A DNA stretch of 37,189 nucleotides from a virus: the IMG/VR virus record IMGVR_UViG_3300021964_000196, positions 1-37,189 of that record; one strand, written 5' to 3'. Below, piece by piece: positions 8,444-29,349 of this stretch. Positions within the stretch are counted from its first letter, which is position 1; every line of letters begins with the position of its first letter. Below the pieces are notes generated by a model. It searched no databases. It was not told where the DNA came from and was given only the letters and a program-made list of their open reading frames with translations. The translations under genes and the position numbers were made by a program.

Positions 8444-8796
8444 TAATTATCAACCTTAGCTCCTGCCCTCCACTGATAACATGACCAATATTTTGCTTTC
8501 CATTTAGGACCTGGGTTATCACAACCATGTCTTGCTCTAAACGACTTTCTGCGCTCCGGATCATCTCTTTTGATTTCCATGTTTGGATCGCCAAAGTTGA
8601 CCTTTACAACATTACCTTTATCGTTTTTAACATATACGCTAAATTTAGAATTACCATCCGAATTACGGAATGGGTCATTTAATTTAACTTTTCTTCCTTG
8701 ATACTCAGCGGCTTCTACAACCAAATCATCGTAAAGATCACATTCTTCACAAATCTGGTCGACTAAATCTTCGTTATGTTGCTTAAATGATTTCAT
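8443..8796 (-). CDS. Conserved late protein with RKSFRARH domain (117 aa)
   Basis: Residues about 30-117 hold a conserved-looking small domain: YQGRKVKLNDPFR, VYVKNDKGNVVKVNFGDP, then KRDDPERRKSFRARHGCD and NPGPKWKAKYWSCYQW, with two Cys that could pair or bind metal. I recognise this as a domain common in marine phage capsid-region proteins, function unknown. The N terminus MKSFKQHNED recalls the capsid-targeting peptides of neighbours but lacks the hydrophobic-x-Glu end; V26-V-E28/A29 just before the domain could be a cleavage site. Start ATG overlaps the TGA of the 331-residue gene (ATGA). Confidence 0.7.
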   Translation of the reverse strand: MKSFKQHNEDLVDQICEECDLYDDLVVEAAEYQGRKVKLNDPFRNSDGNSKFSVYVKNDKGNVVKVNFGDPNMEIKRDDPERRKSFRARHGCDNPGPKWKAKYWSCYQWRAGAKVDN

Positions 8797-9788
8797 TTTT
8801 TAATTCTATTTAATCCAGCCATACGATTCTTTTGCTTACGTCTATAATAAGCCTCCGAATCTTTTGCACCCATCTCTCTTGCAATATCTGCAGAAAACTG
8901 TTGATGCCCGTAATCAGATTTTGCTTTCTCTCCGTAGCGAGATTTAAGCTCAGGTGACAACTCAGCTAACTCAAACGATTCTTTGTTCATTGGCATCAAT
9001 CGTAAATTGCCTGATACATACAAAGGATGATTCTTAATTTTTGCTTGAGCATCCTTTTCATCGTTCTGGTCGACCTGCACAAAGTGTTTCTTTCCACGCA
9101 TTACGATATTGTGCTTAATGTTACCCATTGCTTTTTTAATATCGGAATGTGTTTGTGCCATACCTTCTGGAATATAAGATTCATTTGTTTCTGACTTACC
9201 TGTCTTATACCCATAAACAGATTTCAAATAATCAGTCGCTTTTGTTAACTTATTTTGAACCCATTCTTCCATATCACCGTCTGCTTTGACCATCTTTTCG
9301 ATGCCGTCAACATAGTGGCGAATTTGCTTAACCTGGTTCATTGCCATTGACACTTCTTCTTCACCGCCTGTGTCTGTCGGATCAACATCTTCGTTAACAC
9401 GCTGTAATACAGCTCTAACCTGCGGATGATCTGAAAGACCTCTTGCGATCTTCTCAATTTGCTTGACTGCACCGGTCATATTGCCTCTTTTATATCTCGG
9501 ATCGGTTGCAATACCGATTGCCGTTTTTACGTGTTTTGGATCATATGCTTCGTTCACTCTATCTCCCTCCAAGTCTGCATGTCCTGTTAATCTTAATCTA
9601 TAATCTTTTTTAACTTCTGTAGGAGTGACACGTTTAATATCGCCTATAGTATCTCCGGGATTCTTTAATAATTTTCTAAGAGAGTTTTTAACCTCACCCG
9701 CAGATTTCCCGTTCATGTACATTCCTGGAAGACCTTGTACATCGACCTTCCATGTTGCTTCACCTAATGTGTCTTTGAATTTCTTCAT
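8793..9788 (-). CDS. Modular late protein with capsid-targeting-like N terminus (331 aa)
   Basis: Starts MKKFKDTLGE/A: an aromatic at 4, Leu at 8 and Glu at 10 followed by Ala, the layout of the T4 internal-protein capsid-targeting peptide. The rest is a string of basic, helical modules: DPKHVKTAIGIATDPRYKRG (83-102), a helical region 145-200, and ELSPELKSRYGEKAK (276-290), joined by linkers with VNE/A (78-81), VNE/D (131-134) and NE/S. Such modules recur in marine phage virion-associated proteins (memory). I predict a packaged internal or prohead core protein processed by a gp21-like protease; no enzyme motif is visible. Its start overlaps the endolysin stop. Confidence 0.72.
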   Translation of the reverse strand: MKKFKDTLGEATWKVDVQGLPGMYMNGKSAGEVKNSLRKLLKNPGDTIGDIKRVTPTEVKKDYRLRLTGHADLEGDRVNEAYDPKHVKTAIGIATDPRYKRGNMTGAVKQIEKIARGLSDHPQVRAVLQRVNEDVDPTDTGGEEEVSMAMNQVKQIRHYVDGIEKMVKADGDMEEWVQNKLTKATDYLKSVYGYKTGKSETNESYIPEGMAQTHSDIKKAMGNIKHNIVMRGKKHFVQVDQNDEKDAQAKIKNHPLYVSGNLRLMPMNKESFELAELSPELKSRYGEKAKSDYGHQQFSADIAREMGAKDSEAYYRRKQKNRMAGLNRIKK

Positions 9789-10645: not shown

Positions 10646-13600
10646 CTATTTGTATTCAATTGTTTTGTTAGGTGTTGTAAAGTTTTTCTTTCGCATAATC
10701 GTTTTATTAACGACTTCAAACTCATCCGTATCCTTTCTATATTTAATTACTACCGGAAGATTCAAATCTTTTTGAATATCTTTTAATACTACTTCTGCAT
10801 CTGCATTTTGCTTAATATTGGTTCCTTTCTGCTTTGCAATCTTTTTAAACAATTGCTGCAGTTCAGCAATTTTGATTTCCGGATTGTTTCTACTATCATT
10901 CATCCTATCTGCAAAATGCCTTGTAAACTCAATATCAATATCAAACTTATTGAGCAACCTGTCAGCAAAAACTTCAAGGTCCTTAATTTGCTTTTGTGAT
11001 ACTTCTTCATTCATCTCCCTATGTTTACTAGAATCATATTGTATTGCATGAACAGGTGTTTTTCCTGCACCGGGATGATTTCCGTGGGTGTTATGAGTTA
11101 ATCTTGTATTACCCGCCAATAAATGCATATGTCCCGTATGTGTATCATGTAACACTATAGGTTTTTGCATTGGCTTGCCACTAGCAAATTGCTTTCTTAC
11201 CCTAGTATCTTTTTCTTTATCTAATTGGACGGGTTTGGATGAAGATGCATCAGTATTAGACATTTTCTTAACATTCATCTTATTCACAGTTATTGTCTTG
11301 GCTTTGTTCATTGCTGAATGATAATTGTCTTTATCAGCTAAATGATTTAACATTTTATGCACATGATCTGGATATGCTCCATGTGGCGCCTGTTGTTGAG
11401 TGTGAACTTCGTCATGTTCTTCATGTGGTTTAGGAGCAGTCCATGTACGATGTGGTGTATGTGTATCACCTGTTGTAGTTGTCACACCTTCATTCATCTC
11501 CCGGAAAGATTTAGGTTTCTTTCTATTAGTTGTAACAAACAATTCATCGGATTCAGTGTATGTTCCGTCCTTTTGTTTTGTCACGCCATTAGGAATGACT
11601 TGATACGGTGTATCCTTGACATATTTTTTAGTTAAGGAAGGTGTGCCTCGATCCATATCGCCATATGCTTCATAAGCAACTCCAACTTTAGTATGTTGTG
11701 CTTCTTTTTTACGATTTGCAAAATACTTTTTAGTTAAGTTTTCTTTTTCTGCACCTGTTATTTCGTCAGGTGTAGCGACACCCGGCTTATCTAACTCATC
11801 AACATCACCGTCCATATCTCTATCTTTAGCGGCAATTGCATCCTTCATTGCGTGCTTTAAGGTCTTTTTAGGATCTAATTCATGTGCAATCTTTTCATCA
11901 ATTTGATATTCTTCACCTACCATCTTTGCTAATTCACGGGCATCTAAATATTGACCGCCCGCTGTTGTTTGTAATACACGAGCAGCATAATATTCAGGCG
12001 AATGTTTCATTTTCTTTAACCCACCTGCTTCCTTTGCTTTGCGGTCAATAAGCGCTTTCAATGCCTGTGCCGCTTTCGCATACTTACCTTTGAATAAGAC
12101 TTTATTTACTTTCTTTACGGCCCAGTTTTCGTCAATCTCTGTGCCCTGTGTAAAATTTTCGAAAGCCTCATCTAAGTCAACTTCTTCTGCTACTACACGA
12201 ATGATTTCAGCAATCTTTGCTGCAGTTGCTTGTGGGTGACGCTTGACCGCAGAAGCAAACTCTTTTTCAACCATATCTTTAGCAACTTTAGGATTGTTTC
12301 CACGCTTGATTAGAATTTTTACAACGGCATCTTTAGTGATTGGTCTTTTTGCTTCGTCAAGTTCAACTTCTTCTTTGATACCTCTTAATGCTTTTGCCTG
12401 TGTAATCCAGCCCTTTGCAGTTGGATTAGAAGGACCTTCTTTAACCCATGCACCAATACGCTTGTATGCAGAATTAACAGCACCTTCCCAATTTGCACCT
12501 TCTGAATTATCAACGATGTACATATGGCGTCCAAAGAAATTTTGGAATTTGCCGATGTTCTTTTGAACATCTTTCCACATCTTTTCAACTACAGCAGCTG
12601 GTAATGTCCTATCTCTTTTTTCATTTCTTGCCTGCGCTGTGTCAAGATCTGTATTCACAAAGATCATTGCTGTGTCATAACCCATGCCTCTTAGCATTGC
12701 AGCTTGTTTAGCAATCTTATCATAATCTTTACCTGTGCCATCGATAACGAGACCTAAGCGACCGTCAAGAGCAAGTTTCTGTTTTGTCTTTGTTAGTGCT
12801 TTTGCACGACCACGAATTTCTTGTCCTTTATCAGAAAAGATATCTTCGGGTGTTGTAGATAATCCAGCTTTCTTTAACTGTGCTTCAAATGCATCATCTG
12901 AGTTAATTAATTTTAACCCGAATGTTGTTAATGCAGTTTTGCCTACAATAAATGACTTACCTGAACCTGGACCCCCTGCAAGAAATACAGCTTTAAAGAT
13001 ACCTGGATCATTTACACCTTCGGTAAGCGCTTCCAACATGGCATGTTTATCTTCCGAGGTGATGAATCTATTAACTGTCGCAAATCCCAGCTGTTGAGGA
13101 GTATTCGATTCACCTTCTCTCCATTCATGCATACCGAGATTGTACACGAGTTCAATAGTATCATAATCCACTCCTGCCTTATCTGCTTTCTTTGCTAATG
13201 CTTCAACTAATTTATTTTCATCATTTTCAATTGTTTCAAACATTTCTGTTGATAAGACATCAATCCATTCTAAGATTTCTTTATCTGTTTCAACCCAATC
13301 TTCAAGAGATTTCATACGCAGTTCACGCATTTTAGCATCAATCATTTCGTCTTTATGTTGTTGCTTTAGTTGTTCTTTTTCTCTCTTATGTGTAGCTTTT
13401 GTTCTTTCAACGTCTTCATCAACTGGTTCCTTTTTCTTGAAAGGACGGAATCTGCCATCAAATTTCATCGTACCGTCTTTTTTTCTAGCTTCATGGTAGC
13501 GAGGCTTAAGTGTATTCGATGCTTGTGTCTCCTCCATAAAGTTTTCAAATTCCATATCAAAATCTTCAGACACTTTTTTACCCGATAGACGCATTAAGTC

Positions 13601-14578
13601 AGCTCTACGAACTTGTGGAATCATACGTTTAGCAATACGGTCAATTGCCGCTTTACGCTTTTCAACTTTCTTATCGATAATCATTTTTTCGCCAGGCGAG
13701 AGTTCTGCATAATTCAAACCCTTTGAACCTGCAACCTTTTTACGAATAATATTAATTGCTTTCTTTCTTGCACGAGTTTTTAATTTATCCATAGTAGCAG
13801 CTCTACGCATAGCACGTTTTCTTGCAGCAGCAATTTTTGTTTTATACTTACGCATAATCATAGCACGCTTTCTACGCTGCTGTTGTGTTAATACCGCTTC
13901 AATTAAAACATTTTCTGCTTCTAATTCTTCTGCAAGTTGCATACCTGCACGAACCATATCAAACACCGCTGACGCAGATGATTTAAGTCCTTTAGGAAGA
14001 CCTTGTTTGAATTTAGCTAGATTATTATCTTTAGCAAGTTCACGCATCTTAGATGCGGACATACCTGATACATCATCCGCATCTGGGTCTCTTTCACCCG
14101 CAGAAACTACATCGATGTTATCAAATGTAAAATCTTTGCCGTTGTATTTGTTAAGGAGTGTATCGAATTGTTGAACACGATCTGAACCTACAACAAGAAT
14201 AACTTCTTTAAATTTCTTTTGTAATTCTTGCATTACCTGAATGATTGTTTTTGCTTTTGTTTTAACAATCATATTACCAAACGCTTTCTGAGCTAGTTTG
14301 ATTTTATCGTTGTATGATAATGGATTCTTTTTAGGATCTTCTGATTGTGTTAGGTACACTTGTGCAACTGCTCTTTCGTCTTGAGCAACTTGCTTAATCT
14401 TATTGATGAGTTTTTCGTGTCCTGTTGTGATTGGGTTCATTCTGCCCCAACCTAAGACTACGGTACCAGATGCGGCTTCTTTGAGTGAGCTGGCATTGTC
14501 GTCTAATTTAGGATTGATTTCAATAGTATTATTGACAGTATTTGCGGAAGATTTCTTCCCTGGGTTTTTCTTTTCCAT
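10646..14578 (-). CDS. Giant multidomain protein: nucleotidyltransferase, P-loop kinase, ParB-like and further modules (1310 aa)
   Basis: Residues about 38-185 are a cytidylyltransferase-like nucleotidyltransferase (GWGRMNPITTGHEKL at 43-57, HxGH-type; SGMSASKMRE at 171-180 as the SxxxxR motif). A Lys/Arg-rich helical part (230-345) and a charged linker follow. Residues 528-715 are a P-loop kinase (GGPGSGKS 535-542, VIDGTGKD 611-618), like polynucleotide kinase or zeta-type kinases. Then come basic modules, an acidic DxDxDGDxDxxD loop near 920, a ParB-like segment (KPIVLHDTHTGHMHLLAGNT, R1159), and a C-terminal domain with HFADRMNDSRN. LxE sites lie at domain borders. Late promoter ahead; start ATG follows GAGG. 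Probably virion-internal; role unknown. Confidence 0.85.
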   Translation of the reverse strand: MEKKNPGKKSSANTVNNTIEINPKLDDNASSLKEAASGTVVLGWGRMNPITTGHEKLINKIKQVAQDERAVAQVYLTQSEDPKKNPLSYNDKIKLAQKAFGNMIVKTKAKTIIQVMQELQKKFKEVILVVGSDRVQQFDTLLNKYNGKDFTFDNIDVVSAGERDPDADDVSGMSASKMRELAKDNNLAKFKQGLPKGLKSSASAVFDMVRAGMQLAEELEAENVLIEAVLTQQQRRKRAMIMRKYKTKIAAARKRAMRRAATMDKLKTRARKKAINIIRKKVAGSKGLNYAELSPGEKMIIDKKVEKRKAAIDRIAKRMIPQVRRADLMRLSGKKVSEDFDMEFENFMEETQASNTLKPRYHEARKKDGTMKFDGRFRPFKKKEPVDEDVERTKATHKREKEQLKQQHKDEMIDAKMRELRMKSLEDWVETDKEILEWIDVLSTEMFETIENDENKLVEALAKKADKAGVDYDTIELVYNLGMHEWREGESNTPQQLGFATVNRFITSEDKHAMLEALTEGVNDPGIFKAVFLAGGPGSGKSFIVGKTALTTFGLKLINSDDAFEAQLKKAGLSTTPEDIFSDKGQEIRGRAKALTKTKQKLALDGRLGLVIDGTGKDYDKIAKQAAMLRGMGYDTAMIFVNTDLDTAQARNEKRDRTLPAAVVEKMWKDVQKNIGKFQNFFGRHMYIVDNSEGANWEGAVNSAYKRIGAWVKEGPSNPTAKGWITQAKALRGIKEEVELDEAKRPITKDAVVKILIKRGNNPKVAKDMVEKEFASAVKRHPQATAAKIAEIIRVVAEEVDLDEAFENFTQGTEIDENWAVKKVNKVLFKGKYAKAAQALKALIDRKAKEAGGLKKMKHSPEYYAARVLQTTAGGQYLDARELAKMVGEEYQIDEKIAHELDPKKTLKHAMKDAIAAKDRDMDGDVDELDKPGVATPDEITGAEKENLTKKYFANRKKEAQHTKVGVAYEAYGDMDRGTPSLTKKYVKDTPYQVIPNGVTKQKDGTYTESDELFVTTNRKKPKSFREMNEGVTTTTGDTHTPHRTWTAPKPHEEHDEVHTQQQAPHGAYPDHVHKMLNHLADKDNYHSAMNKAKTITVNKMNVKKMSNTDASSSKPVQLDKEKDTRVRKQFASGKPMQKPIVLHDTHTGHMHLLAGNTRLTHNTHGNHPGAGKTPVHAIQYDSSKHREMNEEVSQKQIKDLEVFADRLLNKFDIDIEFTRHFADRMNDSRNNPEIKIAELQQLFKKIAKQKGTNIKQNADAEVVLKDIQKDLNLPVVIKYRKDTDEFEVVNKTIMRKKNFTTPNKTIEYK

Positions 14579-18857: not shown

Positions 18858-19610
18858 TTACTTGATACCTTTAAACGGATTCTTTTTCCGTGTACCAGGT
18901 TTCAAGGAGTATGGCGAATCAGGCATTTTTGCAATCTTAACTTCTGCTTGCACTTCATAGAAAGCAGATCGTGTTGCCACCCTAACTTTAAAAGGACCCG
19001 TACCAGATAATTTAGGAATATCATTAGGTAACTTCAACGGGTTGGTACTACCAATCATATAAAAATCATCACCTGCTTGCATATAGTATGCAGGTTCTGC
19101 TTTATTGTTTAAATAATGATCTGTGACAACTGCACCCAAATCAACATTAGGTAGTGCTGTAATGTAACGATTAATTCCTGGTTGAGAGAAAAACTCTTTC
19201 ATCTTAGCCAGAGGAACGGCGTCTTTATCTTTCAATCCAGTTTTTGTAGTAGGAATTTTAGGATTCTTGATTCCGGAAAACTCAGCTATGTTTTTAATAA
19301 AATCTTTTGCTTCTTGCGACTTGTTCATAATGTCAACTGCTTTCTTAGCAGCTGCCATACCATAAGTTGTATCCCATTTTCTTCCGTTATAAAAAATACG
19401 GGGATTAGTCAAATTATCTGTGTGGTTCATTTTGACTTCTAACCACGACTGTTCGCCACCTTCTAAAGAAATTAGAACATCTGAATATGCAGTCGATACA
19501 CGAGGACGACCTGCAGTAACATTAGGCATTTTATTTAAATAATCAGCAATATCCTTTTCGTACTTATCAGATGCTGCTGACTCTGCTAAAAATGATTTAA
19601 AACTTTCCAT
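18858..19610 (-). CDS. PD-(D/E)xK nuclease-like protein with capsid-targeting-like N terminus (250 aa)
   Basis: Starts MESFKSFLAE/S: Phe at 4 and 7, Leu at 8, Glu at 10, then Ser, closely like the T4 internal-protein targeting peptide (MKTYQEFIAE/A in T4). After this, residues 14-80 have the layout of a PD-(D/E)xK fold: helix with E18, strand SDVLISLE with D44, and WLEVKMNH with E58-x-K60, ended by FYNGRKW. The C-terminal half is unlike anything I recognise and is rich in Pro/Lys. I predict an internal virion protein with DNA endonuclease activity; the fold is inferred from spacing only. Last gene before a terminator. Confidence 0.72.
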   Translation of the reverse strand: MESFKSFLAESAASDKYEKDIADYLNKMPNVTAGRPRVSTAYSDVLISLEGGEQSWLEVKMNHTDNLTNPRIFYNGRKWDTTYGMAAAKKAVDIMNKSQEAKDFIKNIAEFSGIKNPKIPTTKTGLKDKDAVPLAKMKEFFSQPGINRYITALPNVDLGAVVTDHYLNNKAEPAYYMQAGDDFYMIGSTNPLKLPNDIPKLSGTGPFKVRVATRSAFYEVQAEVKIAKMPDSPYSLKPGTRKKNPFKGIK

Positions 19611-19642: not shown

Positions 19643-20089
19643 TTACCAAAACTTTAGCTTTCCCAATCCGGATGGTTCCTCTTGTTGTTGACTATCTACC
19701 TGCTCTTTTGCACCTTCAATTTGTGTATTTGCATCTTCTAGCGCTTTTTCAGATTCCTCATAATAATTTTTATATGCTGTAATAATAGCATTCTGTTGTT
19801 GAATAAATGCCATAATATCGCTATAGTTAAGCGCTAATACTTCATATCCTTCATCAGACATTCCGATTAACACAGGATCCAATTTATCTTTTTCAAGTTG
19901 AGCAAACACTTCTTCAGCATTTTCTCTTGTAATAACGATAAACTGTAATTCTTTTAATCTTAACTCTGCAGGATCCGGCAAAATCAACTTCGGCTTCTCA
20001 ATAGGTTTAGCCGAAATTTCAATACGCTGAGGCGTACTTGAACATCCTACAAGGAACAAACCTACTGCTAATAATGCGACTAATCTCAT
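19643..20089 (-). CDS. Outer-membrane spanin (o-spanin) lipoprotein
   Basis: Signal sequence MRLVALLAVGLFLVGC with a lipobox (LVGC, C16) and Ser-Ser following, so it is lipidated and sorted to the outer membrane. The mature part starts with a Pro-rich stretch (PIEKPKLILPDPAEL) and has ENAEEVFAQLEKDK and IQQQNAIITAYKNYYEESEK, sequences I associate with large o-spanins of T4-like phages. Start ATG (20087-20089) overlaps the i-spanin TGA as ATGA. It joins the outer to the inner membrane through the i-spanin and disrupts the envelope at lysis. At 148 residues it is long for an o-spanin. Confidence 0.85.
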   Translation of the reverse strand: MRLVALLAVGLFLVGCSSTPQRIEISAKPIEKPKLILPDPAELRLKELQFIVITRENAEEVFAQLEKDKLDPVLIGMSDEGYEVLALNYSDIMAFIQQQNAIITAYKNYYEESEKALEDANTQIEGAKEQVDSQQQEEPSGLGKLKFW

Positions 20090-20583
20090 AGGTTCTTCCT
20101 TTTCCATGCTTCGGGTTGAATATCCGGATTAAAGTTCGGATTTGCATCTCTCCAGCACTCTGGATTAATCTCGCTAGGTTTTGTTGCCTCAAGTTCCTTT
20201 TGTGTTAACTCTGCGCCTGAATATATTTCCATGCATCTTTGAGCATTTGCGGTTCCTTGATTAAGAACTCTTTGTGCAATATTCGGTTTAGCGTTAGCAA
20301 GTGCACCAATATCATGTCTTGATAATCTATTCTCAAGCGCACGATTTCTATCTCGGATTGAACTAAACTCCTCATTCAATCTTGCATTTTCTTGTGCCAT
20401 TGCTTCAAATGAGGCTTGTTGTGCCTTTAATGCTTCTTCATTTGTCGCAACAGCGGTTTCTAATTTCGCATTGTTCTCTGTTAAGATAGCAATTCTTTTT
20501 TGGCTATCTTGATAATACCAAGCGAACCCGCCACCTGCAACCATCAAAATAATTGCCATTATACCCGCAAGTTTCATACCCAT
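20086..20583 (-). CDS. Inner-membrane spanin (i-spanin, Rz-like)
   Basis: N-terminal membrane anchor (LAGIMAIILMVAGGGFAWYY, residues 4-23), then a long coiled coil (about 30-105: NNAKLETAVATNEEALKAQQ, ENARLNEEFSSIRDRNRALE) reaching into the periplasm, and a C-terminal part with two Cys (CMEIYSG and ECWRDAN) and Asn/Pro-rich end. This is the layout of i-spanins, and the o-spanin gene overlaps its 3' end. The pair completes Gram-negative lysis after the endolysin at 9.8 kb. Function inferred from topology and neighbour. Confidence 0.85.
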   Translation of the reverse strand: MGMKLAGIMAIILMVAGGGFAWYYQDSQKRIAILTENNAKLETAVATNEEALKAQQASFEAMAQENARLNEEFSSIRDRNRALENRLSRHDIGALANAKPNIAQRVLNQGTANAQRCMEIYSGAELTQKELEATKPSEINPECWRDANPNFNPDIQPEAWKRKNL

Positions 20584-21679: not shown

Positions 21680-22915
21680 TTATCGTTGCCAACCTTTAAT
21701 TACTTCAGGCGAAAAGTTTGCTTGTGAGAATTGCATACGGTCAACCAATTTAACTGCGTTCTTTCCGATACGGTCAATCGCTACAAATCCCTCTTGCTCT
21801 GTCACTTTATACCCATCTTTTGTTAGCAAGAATGTTCCAATAGTTTTCGCTTTGTCTAGTTTTCTAACTACCATATGCTTTGCTTGTAAAATCAAATTAT
21901 ATAGCTTAAACATATTTATAATCTGCGCCTTCGACACATTGGAAAAATACGACATTACTTCTTTTTGCTTTTGTCGCTTGCCGGCCTTGCCTCTTTCTGT
22001 TTTTAATTTATCGATTTCTTTCTGATAGTAATCATAAATCCAATCCATCATTTCCCCAACAAACCTAGTTGGGTTAGCGATTTCTTCTCCTTTACGGACC
22101 TTTGAGTTAATAAATGCTTTAACACGAATTAGCAATTCTTCGTTTTCAGAAATACCATTTAGAGTTTTTGCATCTACCTTATTAAATAATTTACCTGCAT
22201 CAGATAGAACTTTAGTTACAGCTTCTGTTTCTGCCTTATTAAATGTTGCTGTGCCTGATGCATCTTTATACATTGCATCTACTGCCCAGACGTTTTTCGA
22301 CTTTGAGAGATTTGATGCAATCTCCTTTCCAAAACTTGCTGACATTGAATCAAAAGTTGATCCTCTGTAAGTTGTGTGCCATACCACACCGAGCTCGGTG
22401 CTAAGGATTTGTTTAGCAAGATCGCTTTTCGCTGGTACAGTATAAACAATCGTATTAGGGTGGAAAGTAATATACGATTCACCATCAATTTCCACCGTCT
22501 TGATATCGTCTTTCGAATATAAGAAATCACCTTGTACCACTCCTTCAATTCCCAGCTCCGGAAGATGTTTTAGAGCTAGTTTCATTTTCTTGTTTAAATC
22601 TGGTGATGCAATATCATCATCAATGTCTTTATTGGTTTTGTAAATTTTTGGATTCTTATTAAAAATGCCTTTCTTCGCAACAAAGAATTTACCATCAGAC
22701 GGATCCTTTCCAGCAAACACAGCAGGTGCTCCGTCCCATTTAACAGTTACGGTGACTGATCTTGGGCTATGACCTGCGAGCATATCTCTCAATGCTCGCA
22801 AGTAATTTATAGCCTGGCGTGTACCGTCAACACCTGCATTGAGGAGAATATCCTCAAGGTGTTCCATGTGTACATTCTTTTCTTCTTGTAAATAATTACT
22901 CAGACTTAGCGGCAT
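21680..22915 (-). CDS. KxDG ligase/nucleotidyltransferase-like protein (411 aa)
   Basis: Covalent nucleotidyltransferase motifs are visible: K59-W-D-G62 (motif I, lysine AMP site), GVVQGDFLY (125-133, motif III-like), EGFV (375-378, motif IV) and K389-L-V-D (motif V-like). Conserved phage parts include DMLAGHS and FFVAKKGIFNKNPKIYKT. I would call it an RNA/DNA ligase relative; it is a known uncharacterised family in marine T4-like phages (DUF6267-type, from memory). The chosen start (ATG 22913-22915) lies inside the Cys-rich gene; the frame open to 22972 is rejected. The N terminus MPLSLSNYLQE/E looks like a capsid-targeting peptide shifted by one. Confidence 0.82.
   Translation of the reverse strand: MPLSLSNYLQEEKNVHMEHLEDILLNAGVDGTRQAINYLRALRDMLAGHSPRSVTVTVKWDGAPAVFAGKDPSDGKFFVAKKGIFNKNPKIYKTNKDIDDDIASPDLNKKMKLALKHLPELGIEGVVQGDFLYSKDDIKTVEIDGESYITFHPNTIVYTVPAKSDLAKQILSTELGVVWHTTYRGSTFDSMSASFGKEIASNLSKSKNVWAVDAMYKDASGTATFNKAETEAVTKVLSDAGKLFNKVDAKTLNGISENEELLIRVKAFINSKVRKGEEIANPTRFVGEMMDWIYDYYQKEIDKLKTERGKAGKRQKQKEVMSYFSNVSKAQIINMFKLYNLILQAKHMVVRKLDKAKTIGTFLLTKDGYKVTEQEGFVAIDRIGKNAVKLVDRMQFSQANFSPEVIKGWQR
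21913..21920 (-). promoter_or_regulatory. Internal late-promoter-like box
   Basis: Minus strand TATAAATA inside the ligase-like coding region, 234 bases before the 278-residue structural gene. May boost that gene, or be chance in AT-rich sequence. Confidence 0.3.
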
Positions 22916-23045
22916 TATTATCATTCCTATAATCTTCACAGGGTTCACATCTACATTGTGTGCATACATCATTTACGCAATCTGGACATTCATAATCGCC
23001 ATGGCAAGCATGTCCGCAAGAGTCGCATAAAGGTAGATTTTCCAT
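22896..23045 (-). CDS. Tiny Cys-rich putative zinc-binding protein (49 aa)
   Basis: Nine Cys in 49 residues: CDSC (7-10), C14, CPDC-type CxxC (20-23), then C28, C31, C33 and C36 (CTQCRCEPC), which reads like two or three metal-binding knuckles. The tail is Asn/Asp-rich. The ATG (23043-23045) shares a base with the stop of the membrane protein upstream (TAATG) and has AAGGA ahead. The ligase-like gene starts within its last codons. Function unknown; might bind DNA, RNA or a host protein. Confidence 0.7.
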   Translation of the reverse strand: MENLPLCDSCGHACHGDYECPDCVNDVCTQCRCEPCEDYRNDNNAAKSE

Positions 23046-23297: not shown

Positions 23298-23533
23298 ATC
23301 GCTTTCCCAAATATTTTGTCTATTGCATCTTCGTTTACACAAAAAACCTTATCAACCGGTCTCAGAGGATATACTGTTAGAATATGATCTTTTAGTATCC
23401 TATTAGTATCACCCTCTCCAACATATCTTATACATTCCTCAATAGTATTAAATTCCGGATCTGTCAATTGATAAGTTTCTAAAAATCCCTCACCTTCGTA
23501 CTGCATCATAACAAAGATGATGAACCATTTCAT
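23294..23533 (-). CDS. Small hypothetical protein (79 aa)
   Basis: Hydrophobic N-terminal MKWFIIFVMMQYEGEGF that could be a beta strand rather than a signal peptide (only about 9 hydrophobic residues), then EFNTIEECIRYVGEGDTNRIL and a final VDKVFCVNED. Starts on the ATGA overlap with the 361-residue gene. The pattern (short aliphatic strand, TxExC helix) recalls small proteins with a ferredoxin-like fold, common in phages. No known motif. Confidence 0.65.
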   Translation of the reverse strand: MKWFIIFVMMQYEGEGFLETYQLTDPEFNTIEECIRYVGEGDTNRILKDHILTVYPLRPVDKVFCVNEDAIDKIFGKAI

Positions 23534-24615
23534 GGCATTACCTTTTTTATATTTTTAAATTTAATATCGTTAGGATATTCCCCTCGCTTAGAATTTCTAA
23601 TTTCAATAGTATATTGCATGTATTTATTAGAACATTTAATTGTGATTTGCTTACTATTGCGACTAGGGTATCTAATTTCATCAATTCTTATGTTATTTGT
23701 TAACTTTTTTAGCGTAGGTCTATCTAACCAAAATACACTAAATCCTATTCTTTCTCTCTTAACATAGAAATAGTTCATACCCCAAGCTCGCTCAAATATA
23801 GGAATGAGGTTTGTACTGCTAAATTTAGGAGTTTTAAATTCAGGTTGTCTATTGACTGGTGGTGTTTTTCTTTCGTCAAATCCTTGTTGTACTTTATTCA
23901 AATCAACACCAAAAGCACTCAAAAAATCCGCCCCTGCAGACGGATATTGAAGAACACCATCTGCATTAAATAATGAAGCGGCGCCTGAGTATGCACTGAA
24001 TGTCAATCCATTAATATCTTTTAATGAGACATACCATTTTTGATTTGTTCTGTCTGTTAATACGATATCACCAATGACTTCACCTAATTTTTCAATTGCA
24101 ATACCTTCTTTTTTAGTTGAACCTTTTCTCTGCTCAACTTTTTGTATTTCCACATCTGCAAAGGGAGGCCAAGCATGTTCCATCTGCTTAACTAGTTTGG
24201 CAAATTGTTCATCTTGTCTTGTGTCAAAATACTCTTTTAAATTACTAACTGTAGATAGTTCGTAATTTTCGCCATTGTTTGAACCACGGGATATTACCAC
24301 ATCGATATCAAACCCATCTATTGTAAAGGAGTAACTTGAAAACTTAGAACTATTAGGACTTATGGGATTGAATTTTATATTGGATATTCCAGAAGTGTAT
24401 TTTAATTGTGTATCTAAAAAAGTGATTAAATCTTCTCTAGTATCTCTTTCTGGATTAATGAGTTGTAATCTAAATTCTCTTTGATTAGGATAGTATCTTG
24501 AATTTCTTCCGGCAGGTTTCGTGTCCTCAACCTTAAACCCTTGTGTTAAGACTAATTTATTTAGGTCTTCACCAAATTGCTTGTAAAAAGTTATTGCTTT
24601 GTCTGAGGTTGCCAT
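23530..24615 (-). CDS. Unknown late protein (361 aa)
   Basis: No family recognised. N-terminal half: helix FYKQFGEDLNKLVLTQGF, basic strand RYYPNQREFRLQLIN, and FDIDVVISRGSN, then helical (LKEYFDTRQDEQFAKLVKQ). Middle: LTDRTNQKWYVSLKDINGLTF, with GAASLFNADGVLQYPSAG. C terminus is basic and beta-rich (YFYVKRERIGFSVFWLD, KQITIKCSNKYMQYTIEIR). The acidic FDIDVV and later KWYVSLK could form a nuclease-like metal site (D...x-K), which I cannot demonstrate. Made from the late unit starting at 25112; the start follows the 105-residue gene stop by 3 bases. Confidence 0.65.
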   Translation of the reverse strand: MATSDKAITFYKQFGEDLNKLVLTQGFKVEDTKPAGRNSRYYPNQREFRLQLINPERDTREDLITFLDTQLKYTSGISNIKFNPISPNSSKFSSYSFTIDGFDIDVVISRGSNNGENYELSTVSNLKEYFDTRQDEQFAKLVKQMEHAWPPFADVEIQKVEQRKGSTKKEGIAIEKLGEVIGDIVLTDRTNQKWYVSLKDINGLTFSAYSGAASLFNADGVLQYPSAGADFLSAFGVDLNKVQQGFDERKTPPVNRQPEFKTPKFSSTNLIPIFERAWGMNYFYVKRERIGFSVFWLDRPTLKKLTNNIRIDEIRYPSRNSKQITIKCSNKYMQYTIEIRNSKRGEYPNDIKFKNIKKVMP

Positions 24616-28176: not shown

Positions 28177-29349
28177 TTATACCTCAATAATTTGAGCCAT
28201 ACATTTTCCGCCAAAGCCAAAGGAATTATTAAGAGTTCTTAGTTTTCCATTTTTCCTTATAGTTGTATTATCTTTAACCAGTATGCTACAAGGATCTTCA
28301 AAAAATCTTGTCCTTGCGATTCTTGGAAGGCATTTGTGCTTCATCGATAGAATAGAATAGATAGTCTCTAATGCACCGGCGCCACCAAGGGTGTGCCCAA
28401 TCATTGACTTCGGTGCCCACAAAGGAATTAGTCCTATTGTGTCTACAACTGCATTATATTCTATAGGGTCTCCTACAGGTGTAGCCGTTGCATGACCACA
28501 AACAAAATCTGGTTTACATCCTGCGTTTTCAATCGCTTTTTCTATTGCAATCCTTTCTCCTATTCCGTCAGGTGCAGGACTAGTCATATCTGTTGCATCA
28601 TTTGCTTTACCTGCAGGGTATAACTTGGCATGTACAGTTGAACCGTATTCTGCAACTTTTTGTGGTGATTGTAAAATCAAAACACCTGCACCTTCGCCCA
28701 TTACAAATCCTTTACGATCTGGGTCAAAAGGAATTGACTCATTTGCCAATGCTCCAATTTGTGCAAAGTATTTCATAGCAAGCGAATTGCATCCTGCATC
28801 GGATCCGCCTACAATGACATAGTCATATTCATCTGCAAGATACATTCCATAATCAATAGAAGTCATACCTGTTGAGCAACTACTATACACCGCAACCGCA
28901 TGTCCATTAAATTTAAAATGTGAGCAGATGTGAGATGGTGCCATATCTGGAATACGATTAACAAGGCGTCTAGGATTATTACGCTTGTTATTCATCACCT
29001 TTGTGAAGATTTCAGGCCCATCCTCAACGTCATTAGATACCGTTGATACAATAACTGCTACGTTTGTACTATGAGGCAACTGACTCATATTTAACGCTTG
29101 GTTTGTTGCGTGTAAAGCCATCTTTTGACTTTTAGTCAATGTAGGTGACACCTTAGGTGAAAAATTATCAGGTAACAGTATATCTTCTGTCACAGTGTAC
29201 CCACGATAGATTTTATAATTTTCTTCTACGAGGTCGGGTATTTCTACACTATGGTCTGCATTATATAACATATTGACCCAGCATTGCTCTGGGTTATTAC
29301 CTAAGGTGTCAATCATTCCATAACCGACTACGTAGCAAGGATTCTGCAT
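28177..29349 (-). CDS. fabF: Beta-ketoacyl-ACP synthase (KAS I/II, FabF-like)
   Basis: Condensing enzyme of fatty acid synthesis: adds malonyl-ACP to acyl-ACP. The full catalytic set is visible: C158 in VYSSCSTGM, H286 in CGHATATPVGD, K314 and H319 in PKSMIGHTLGGAGA, and the NSFGFGG loop at 375-381. Length 390 residues (FabF about 410). The start ATG (29347-29349) follows the 58-residue gene by three bases; no strong ribosome site is seen, so translation may be coupled. GHATATP replaces the usual HGTxTxxGD, so the family is divergent. A phage-encoded KAS suggests lipid remodelling or a non-standard acyl product; not shown. Confidence 0.92.
   Translation of the reverse strand: MQNPCYVVGYGMIDTLGNNPEQCWVNMLYNADHSVEIPDLVEENYKIYRGYTVTEDILLPDNFSPKVSPTLTKSQKMALHATNQALNMSQLPHSTNVAVIVSTVSNDVEDGPEIFTKVMNNKRNNPRRLVNRIPDMAPSHICSHFKFNGHAVAVYSSCSTGMTSIDYGMYLADEYDYVIVGGSDAGCNSLAMKYFAQIGALANESIPFDPDRKGFVMGEGAGVLILQSPQKVAEYGSTVHAKLYPAGKANDATDMTSPAPDGIGERIAIEKAIENAGCKPDFVCGHATATPVGDPIEYNAVVDTIGLIPLWAPKSMIGHTLGGAGALETIYSILSMKHKCLPRIARTRFFEDPCSILVKDNTTIRKNGKLRTLNNSFGFGGKCMAQIIEV

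Follow-up and report, generated by a model that had tools for sequence, protein, structure and literature searches.

A genome fragment of an uncultured T4-like phage encodes, on its minus strand, a protein that is strongly supported by sequence and structural model as a nuclease of the PD-(D/E)xK type. Its residues 1-10 are likewise strongly supported, from the sequence, as a cleavable capsid-targeting propeptide of the T4 type ending at E10/S11. Taken as a whole, the best reading is that the nuclease is made late, packaged through its tag, cut by gp21, ejected and active on DNA early in infection; this is considered probable. The window, meaning the whole stretch of DNA analysed, is the IMG/VR viral record IMGVR_UViG_3300021964_000196 of 37,189 bases. 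Its genes include what we take to be DNA polymerase, UvsX, gp41 helicase, primase and NrdA/NrdB-like proteins, a set that presumably marks a T4-like phage. The features concerned are as follows.

18858..19610, minus strand: coding sequence of the predicted tagged PD-(D/E)xK nuclease, 250 aa, P0001 (one open frame; IMG/VR relatives; AlphaFold).
19581..19610, minus strand: codons 1-10, MESFKSFLAE, predicted T4-type capsid-targeting propeptide (pattern statistics; disorder in the model; the sister clade lacks it as a whole).
19578..19583, minus strand: predicted prohead-protease cleavage junction E10/S11 ([LIFM]xE before S/T in 20/20 tagged main-clade members; Met-Ser start in untagged ones).
19557..19559, minus strand: E18 codon, first acidic residue of the PD-(D/E)xK signature (invariant in 32 homologues; within helix 12-26).
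19479..19481, minus strand: D44 codon, predicted catalytic D (invariant; adjoins strand 45-49).
19431..19439, minus strand: E58-V59-K60 codons, ExK motif (all three invariant; end of strand 54-60).
19643..20583, minus strand: overlapping spanin genes, Rz1-like 19643-20107 and Rz-like 20086-20583 (PHROGs; immediately upstream of the nuclease).
21913..21920, minus strand: late-promoter-like site TATAAATA (motif scan; 5′ of the gene run ending with the nuclease).
21680..22972, minus strand: DUF6267 / phrog_455 protein, PF19782, E 1.5e-112 (Pfam/PHROGs).
10646..14578, minus strand: cytidylyltransferase and P-loop kinase protein, 1310 aa, of the same block (Pfam/PHROGs).
8793..9788, minus strand: 331-aa protein with a second CTS-like N terminus in the window, MKKFKDTLGE/A (N-terminal pattern survey).

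The nuclease frame is uninterrupted on the minus strand, and the plus-strand reading contains many stops. A preliminary description, made from the sequence, had the coordinates right and left the strand unstated. The N terminus of the gene, MESFKSFLAESAASDKYE, reads MESFKSFLAE/S, and the N-terminal stretch carrying the tag is MESFKSFLAESA.

The D44...E58-x-K60 arrangement noticed in that description was verified, and its residues are invariant across 32 aligned homologues. The signature is fuller than was first seen, with E18 added to D44, E58 and K60; V59 is also invariant. A D...ExK arrangement on its own would be weak evidence, which the invariance in 32 homologues strengthens. The AlphaFold model, built from the homologue alignment, has a mean pLDDT of 90.4, with disorder (pLDDT <50) at residues 1-9 only. 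It contains a helix at 12-26 and strands at 31-34, 45-49 and 54-60. The E, D and ExK residues are placed as in PD-(D/E)xK enzymes, and the predicted core follows the order of that fold, a helix and then neighbouring strands bearing D and ExK. A Foldseek search of the PDB returned HhaI (6uke, E 1.7e-3), then VRR_NUC (4qbn) and Hjc (2wcz), with HindIII and EcoRV among the next. These scores against solved structures are weak, with no E <= 0.001 and TM <= 0.36, and the top neighbours belong mostly to the PD-(D/E)xK superfamily. The active-site signature nevertheless points the same way as the kind of enzyme that recurs among the neighbours. The phage protein shares the E-D-ExK signature and the core strand order with HhaI, VRR-NUC and Hjc; it differs from them in its virion-type propeptide and an extra C-terminal part. 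At sequence level, no significant match was found among all PDB chains, no significant family match in Pfam, PHROGs or NCBIfam, and no match to known defence proteins in a PADLOC search.

The internal proteins of T4 provide the comparison for the tag. In T4 DNA, these proteins begin MKTYQEFIAE/AR and MKTYQEFIAE/AS. The tag of the nuclease has the same spacing: F7, A9 and E10 are shared, position 4 holds an aromatic residue, position 8 is L/I and position 11 is a small residue. The position-by-position match to T4 proposed earlier was therefore borne out against the IP sequences. Published mutagenesis assigns targeting chiefly to residues 4 and 7, and processing to residues 8 and 10 (PMC9026906). 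The end of the tag, a hydrophobic-x-E followed by a small residue, corresponds to a prohead-protease site in 20/20 tagged main-clade members, and nowhere is the tag better conserved than at these xE/small cleavage residues. 

A looser N-terminal pattern gave counts near chance and was dropped in favour of the T4-spaced pattern M..[FYW]..F[ILVM].E[SAG], which was applied to 1589 ORFs from ten T4-like genomes or fragments with shuffled N termini as the control. Seven matches were observed, whereas shuffling gave 0.04 on average and never more than 1. Four of the seven are independent, because two T4 proteins and the window nuclease shaped the pattern. The seven are T4 IPII, T4 IPIII, the window nuclease, SSM1_190 of S-SM1, Melnitz CDS15, a gene of P-SSM2 and, on contig G013, a gene resembling a cytidylyltransferase. 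Three of them (T4 IPII, T4 IPIII and the S-SM1 cytidylyltransferase) are known virion proteins. SSM1_190 is T4-GC190, which was detected in purified S-SM1 virions by Sullivan et al. (PMC3037559).

The tag behaves as a swappable module. The homologues of the nuclease have two types of N terminus: in one, a propeptide ending in [LIFMV]xE leads up to the first conserved residue; in the other, the protein begins with Met at exactly that point. In the 20 tagged members, the propeptide is 10-42 residues long and [LIFM]xE stands immediately before S or T. In the 26 untagged members, the initiator Met lies at the predicted mature residue (M/SAASDKYE; M/S). A single branch separates these two groups, and a 79-row tree of a wider homologue sample shows at least 3-4 changes in the presence of the tag. 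Two genes carry the tag ahead of a former Met-Ser start, namely MKTFKGYLIE/MSPADKYE (L292) and MRTFKGYLVE/MSAADQYE (L296). Four further members (L378, L384, L386 and L389) carry a tag, a 7-residue linker and the former ATG, as in MQNFKLFLEE/EKELLLM/SAASD (L384) and MKSFKSFIGE/ELELLLM/SARSD. A Shine–Dalgarno-like GGAG or AGGA lies 9-10 nt 5′ of the inner ATG in the linker type. To judge by their N termini, both types look like snapshots of tag addition, and the four linker-type genes could be dual-start genes giving a tagged, packaged product and an untagged one from a single gene.

The late-promoter box of T4 is [CT]ATAAATA. In 65 of the 98 distinct upstream regions of the nuclease family, this box lies no more than 70 bp from the gene, mostly at 25-45 bp, and its background density is 0.017 per 100 bp (first set of loci). 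It is common to tagged and untagged members. Late transcription is thus indicated at the level of the family; for the window itself, the motif scan found no box directly upstream of the nuclease, and the nearest usable site on the same strand, at 21920, is at operon level. This TATAAATA site may drive the nuclease. The spanin pair directly 5′ of the gene is, on gene order, a late lysis context. As for head maturation, a contig of the tagged clade (G002) encodes the prohead protease gp21 (PF03420, E 1.1e-43) and a gp23 with the cleavage site QLTE/A, keeping the LxE site where T4 gp23 is cut. PF03420 is also present on several contigs of the untagged clade. No gp21 was found in the 37-kb window, a genome fragment.

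Computation supports the nuclease signature and fold, the modular tag, the conserved cleavage site, the late promoter of the family, and the protease and gp23 site in a relative; packaging in the phage of the window, ejection, enzymatic activity and the target are steps that we infer. Under the favoured reading, the PD-(D/E)xK DNA nuclease would be synthesised late in infection and sorted into the prohead core by its first 10 residues. The gp21 prohead protease would then cut after E10 to give a mature nuclease with an N-terminal Ser11. This would stay in the head beside the packaged DNA and be ejected with the genome into the next host. There, it could cut host chromosome, plasmid, prophage or competing phage DNA before any phage gene is expressed, attack on host DNA being only one option for the target. 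Packaging of this kind raises the question of how DNA survives next to a nuclease in the capsid. T4 carrying packaged staphylococcal nuclease had its own DNA cut only after calcium was added (PMC9026906), and on this calcium dependence a packaged nuclease could lie dormant.

The gene belongs to a recurring block. In relatives, the usual order is the nuclease, immediately next DUF6267, and then genes for cytidylyltransferases and kinases; in the window, it lies ~2 kb downstream of the DUF6267 gene. Several proteins of the block carry the same tag: DUF6267 (often, in relatives), the cytidylyltransferase, AAA and small basic proteins. The DUF6267 protein of the window (21680-22972, minus strand) contains KWDG, which presumably recalls motif I (KxDG) of nucleotidyltransferase/ligase enzymes. 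In other isolates, the slot before DUF6267 is occupied by different proteins, some of them tagged. HTVC008M gp126 (L093:4935-5993) and CDS15 of Melnitz EXVC044M (L092:4941-6026), both from cultured phages and directly before DUF6267, form a second tagged family with a K-T-D..SLK motif. The AlphaFold model of gp126 (pLDDT 39) was unusable, and no fold is assigned to this protein on its D..SLK motif. A 361-aa protein near DUF6267 in the window (23530-24615, minus strand) contains a stretch of the D..SLK kind (GDIVLTDRTNQKWYVSLK) and matched no family; from this stretch, it is possibly another nuclease-like slot protein. Two relatives (L015:1867-3369 and L022:3209-4768) encode, just 5′ of the nuclease, a tagged protein of ~500 aa with a P-loop-like GRGGIGKT, matched in L015 to phrog_1250 (E 6e-30). 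Elsewhere in the window, a 390-aa protein (28177-29349, minus strand) reads like a beta-ketoacyl synthase (CSTGMTSIDYG), which is unusual for a T4-like phage.

A tblastn search of IMG/VR gave 200 relatives of the nuclease. No bacterial homologue was found in a scan of 84,980 genomes, and no named phage had a tblastn match among 50,697 records. A profile search gave no match in five phages. Among the best Foldseek hits to viral models was Q58MG2 of Prochlorococcus phage P-SSM2 (E 1.5e-9), a protein of 225 aa that is uncharacterised. It is taken to be the 225-aa ORF at 157263 with a PD..LEVK motif, annotated PSSM2_192, which lies two genes before the cytidylyltransferase T4-GC190. Relatives of PSSM2_192 in S-8S53, P-TIM40 (P-TIM40_181) and S-H25 lie directly before DUF6267 or in the equivalent position. 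These uncharacterised cyanophage proteins resemble the nuclease in structure, in a PD..ExK-type motif and in block position, but they have ~20% identity to it and an untagged N terminus.

The avoidance of palindromes was considered as a clue to nuclease specificity. CGCG is absent from the window (0 against 24 expected), from G001 (0 against 84) and from G013 (0 against 149), and is absent or nearly so in G002, G006, G009, G011, P-SSM2, HTVC008M and Melnitz. Other avoided palindromes differ by phage, and the carriers G007, G008 and G016 avoid none; their DNA may be modified. The clue was dropped and the absence of CGCG is not attributed to the nuclease, because CGCG is normal in some carriers and is missing from the unrelated SAR11 podovirus HTVC019P (0 against 13 expected).

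The main rival to a packaged nuclease is a late DNA-processing role inside the cell, in which the enzyme would resolve or trim replicated DNA for packaging, replacing T4 endonuclease VII, with the tagged form tethered to the prohead and its injection incidental. Because the same late promoter is also found in a large clade whose members lack the tag, packaging by the tag would not be essential to the shared function and a late function can exist in the cell; genes with a tag and an inner start could produce both forms. Hjc is among the fold neighbours, and endonuclease VII (gp49, PF02945) was matched in T4 only and in 0/14 other records searched, relatives included, although several of the IMG/VR records are fragments. 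Endonuclease VII is likewise missing from P-SSM2, Melnitz and HTVC008M, yet these phages show no sequence match to the nuclease family, P-SSM2 having only the distant fold relative. Moreover, the portal would separate an enzyme in the prohead core from the branched DNA that jams outside, and in-cell processing has no need for a cleavable propeptide. This role is regarded as unlikely.

The two other alternatives concern the target and the tag. The nuclease could be packaged and ejected as a weapon against competitors or defences, cutting DNA of a co-infecting phage, prophage or plasmid, or a defence element, and not the host chromosome. The T4 CTS cargo IPI* acts in such a defence conflict (PMC3012670), an intron endonuclease is reported to mediate phage competition (PMC11620839), and the absent palindromes suggest restriction pressure on these phages. 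PADLOC found no sequence match to known defence proteins, and this version is rated improbable. The N-terminal motif might instead be a common start of late proteins in the block, with no capsid address and no packaging, since DUF6267, the cytidylyltransferase, AAA and the small basic proteins carry it too. This is highly improbable: the identically spaced motif of T4 IPIII has been proven to act as its capsid address (PMC9026906), S-SM1 virions contain T4-GC190, one of the tagged proteins of the block (PMC3037559), and conservation of the tag is strongest at its cleavage residues.

The packaged nuclease of the favoured reading has known counterparts. T4 IPI, IPII, IPIII and Alt share with it the 10-residue tag (aromatic 4, F7, L/I8, A9, E10 and a small residue), late expression and a gp21-type site; their cargo consists of small basic proteins, an anti-restriction protein and an ADP-ribosyltransferase, whereas that of the window is a nuclease-type protein. 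T4 has been engineered to package EcoRI and staphylococcal nuclease via the CTS and to deliver them to cells (PMC9026906). The tag is the same there but the combination artificial, while the window case is natural, with repeated gain or loss of the tag. Restriction endonucleases occur naturally in the particles of chloroviruses (PMC7019647). The virus-encoded DNA-cutting enzymes in PBCV-1 virions are believed to begin breaking down host DNA within minutes (PMC7019647); PBCV-1 is a virus of eukaryotic algae with companion methyltransferases, and uses neither a T4-type tag nor the prohead protease route. Injected polyvalent phage proteins, predicted RNases included, are also known (PMC5512222). 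The earlier suggestion of novelty stands for a natural phage case, as no CTS-tagged or packaged DNA nuclease of this kind was found in the open-access literature; it does not extend to packaged nucleases as such, in view of engineered T4 and the chloroviruses. What seems new here is a nuclease as the natural cargo of T4-type capsid targeting.

A wider proposal is put forward tentatively, at somewhat below an even chance. In T4-like phages of sea and freshwater, a late nuclease may repeatedly have been made into an injected weapon by a 10-residue address placed before its start codon; some genes would give both products, and the block would pack further enzymes acting on nucleotides or nucleic acids. 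The natural tagged and untagged pairs are ready-made controls, and the occurrence of the gene block in cultured phages makes the cargo of oceanic T4-like heads directly testable. If the reading is true, these phages attack their host or their rivals with a nuclease that arrives beside the genome, before gene expression, and the capsid-targeting route of T4 would be a general delivery system, swappable in evolution.
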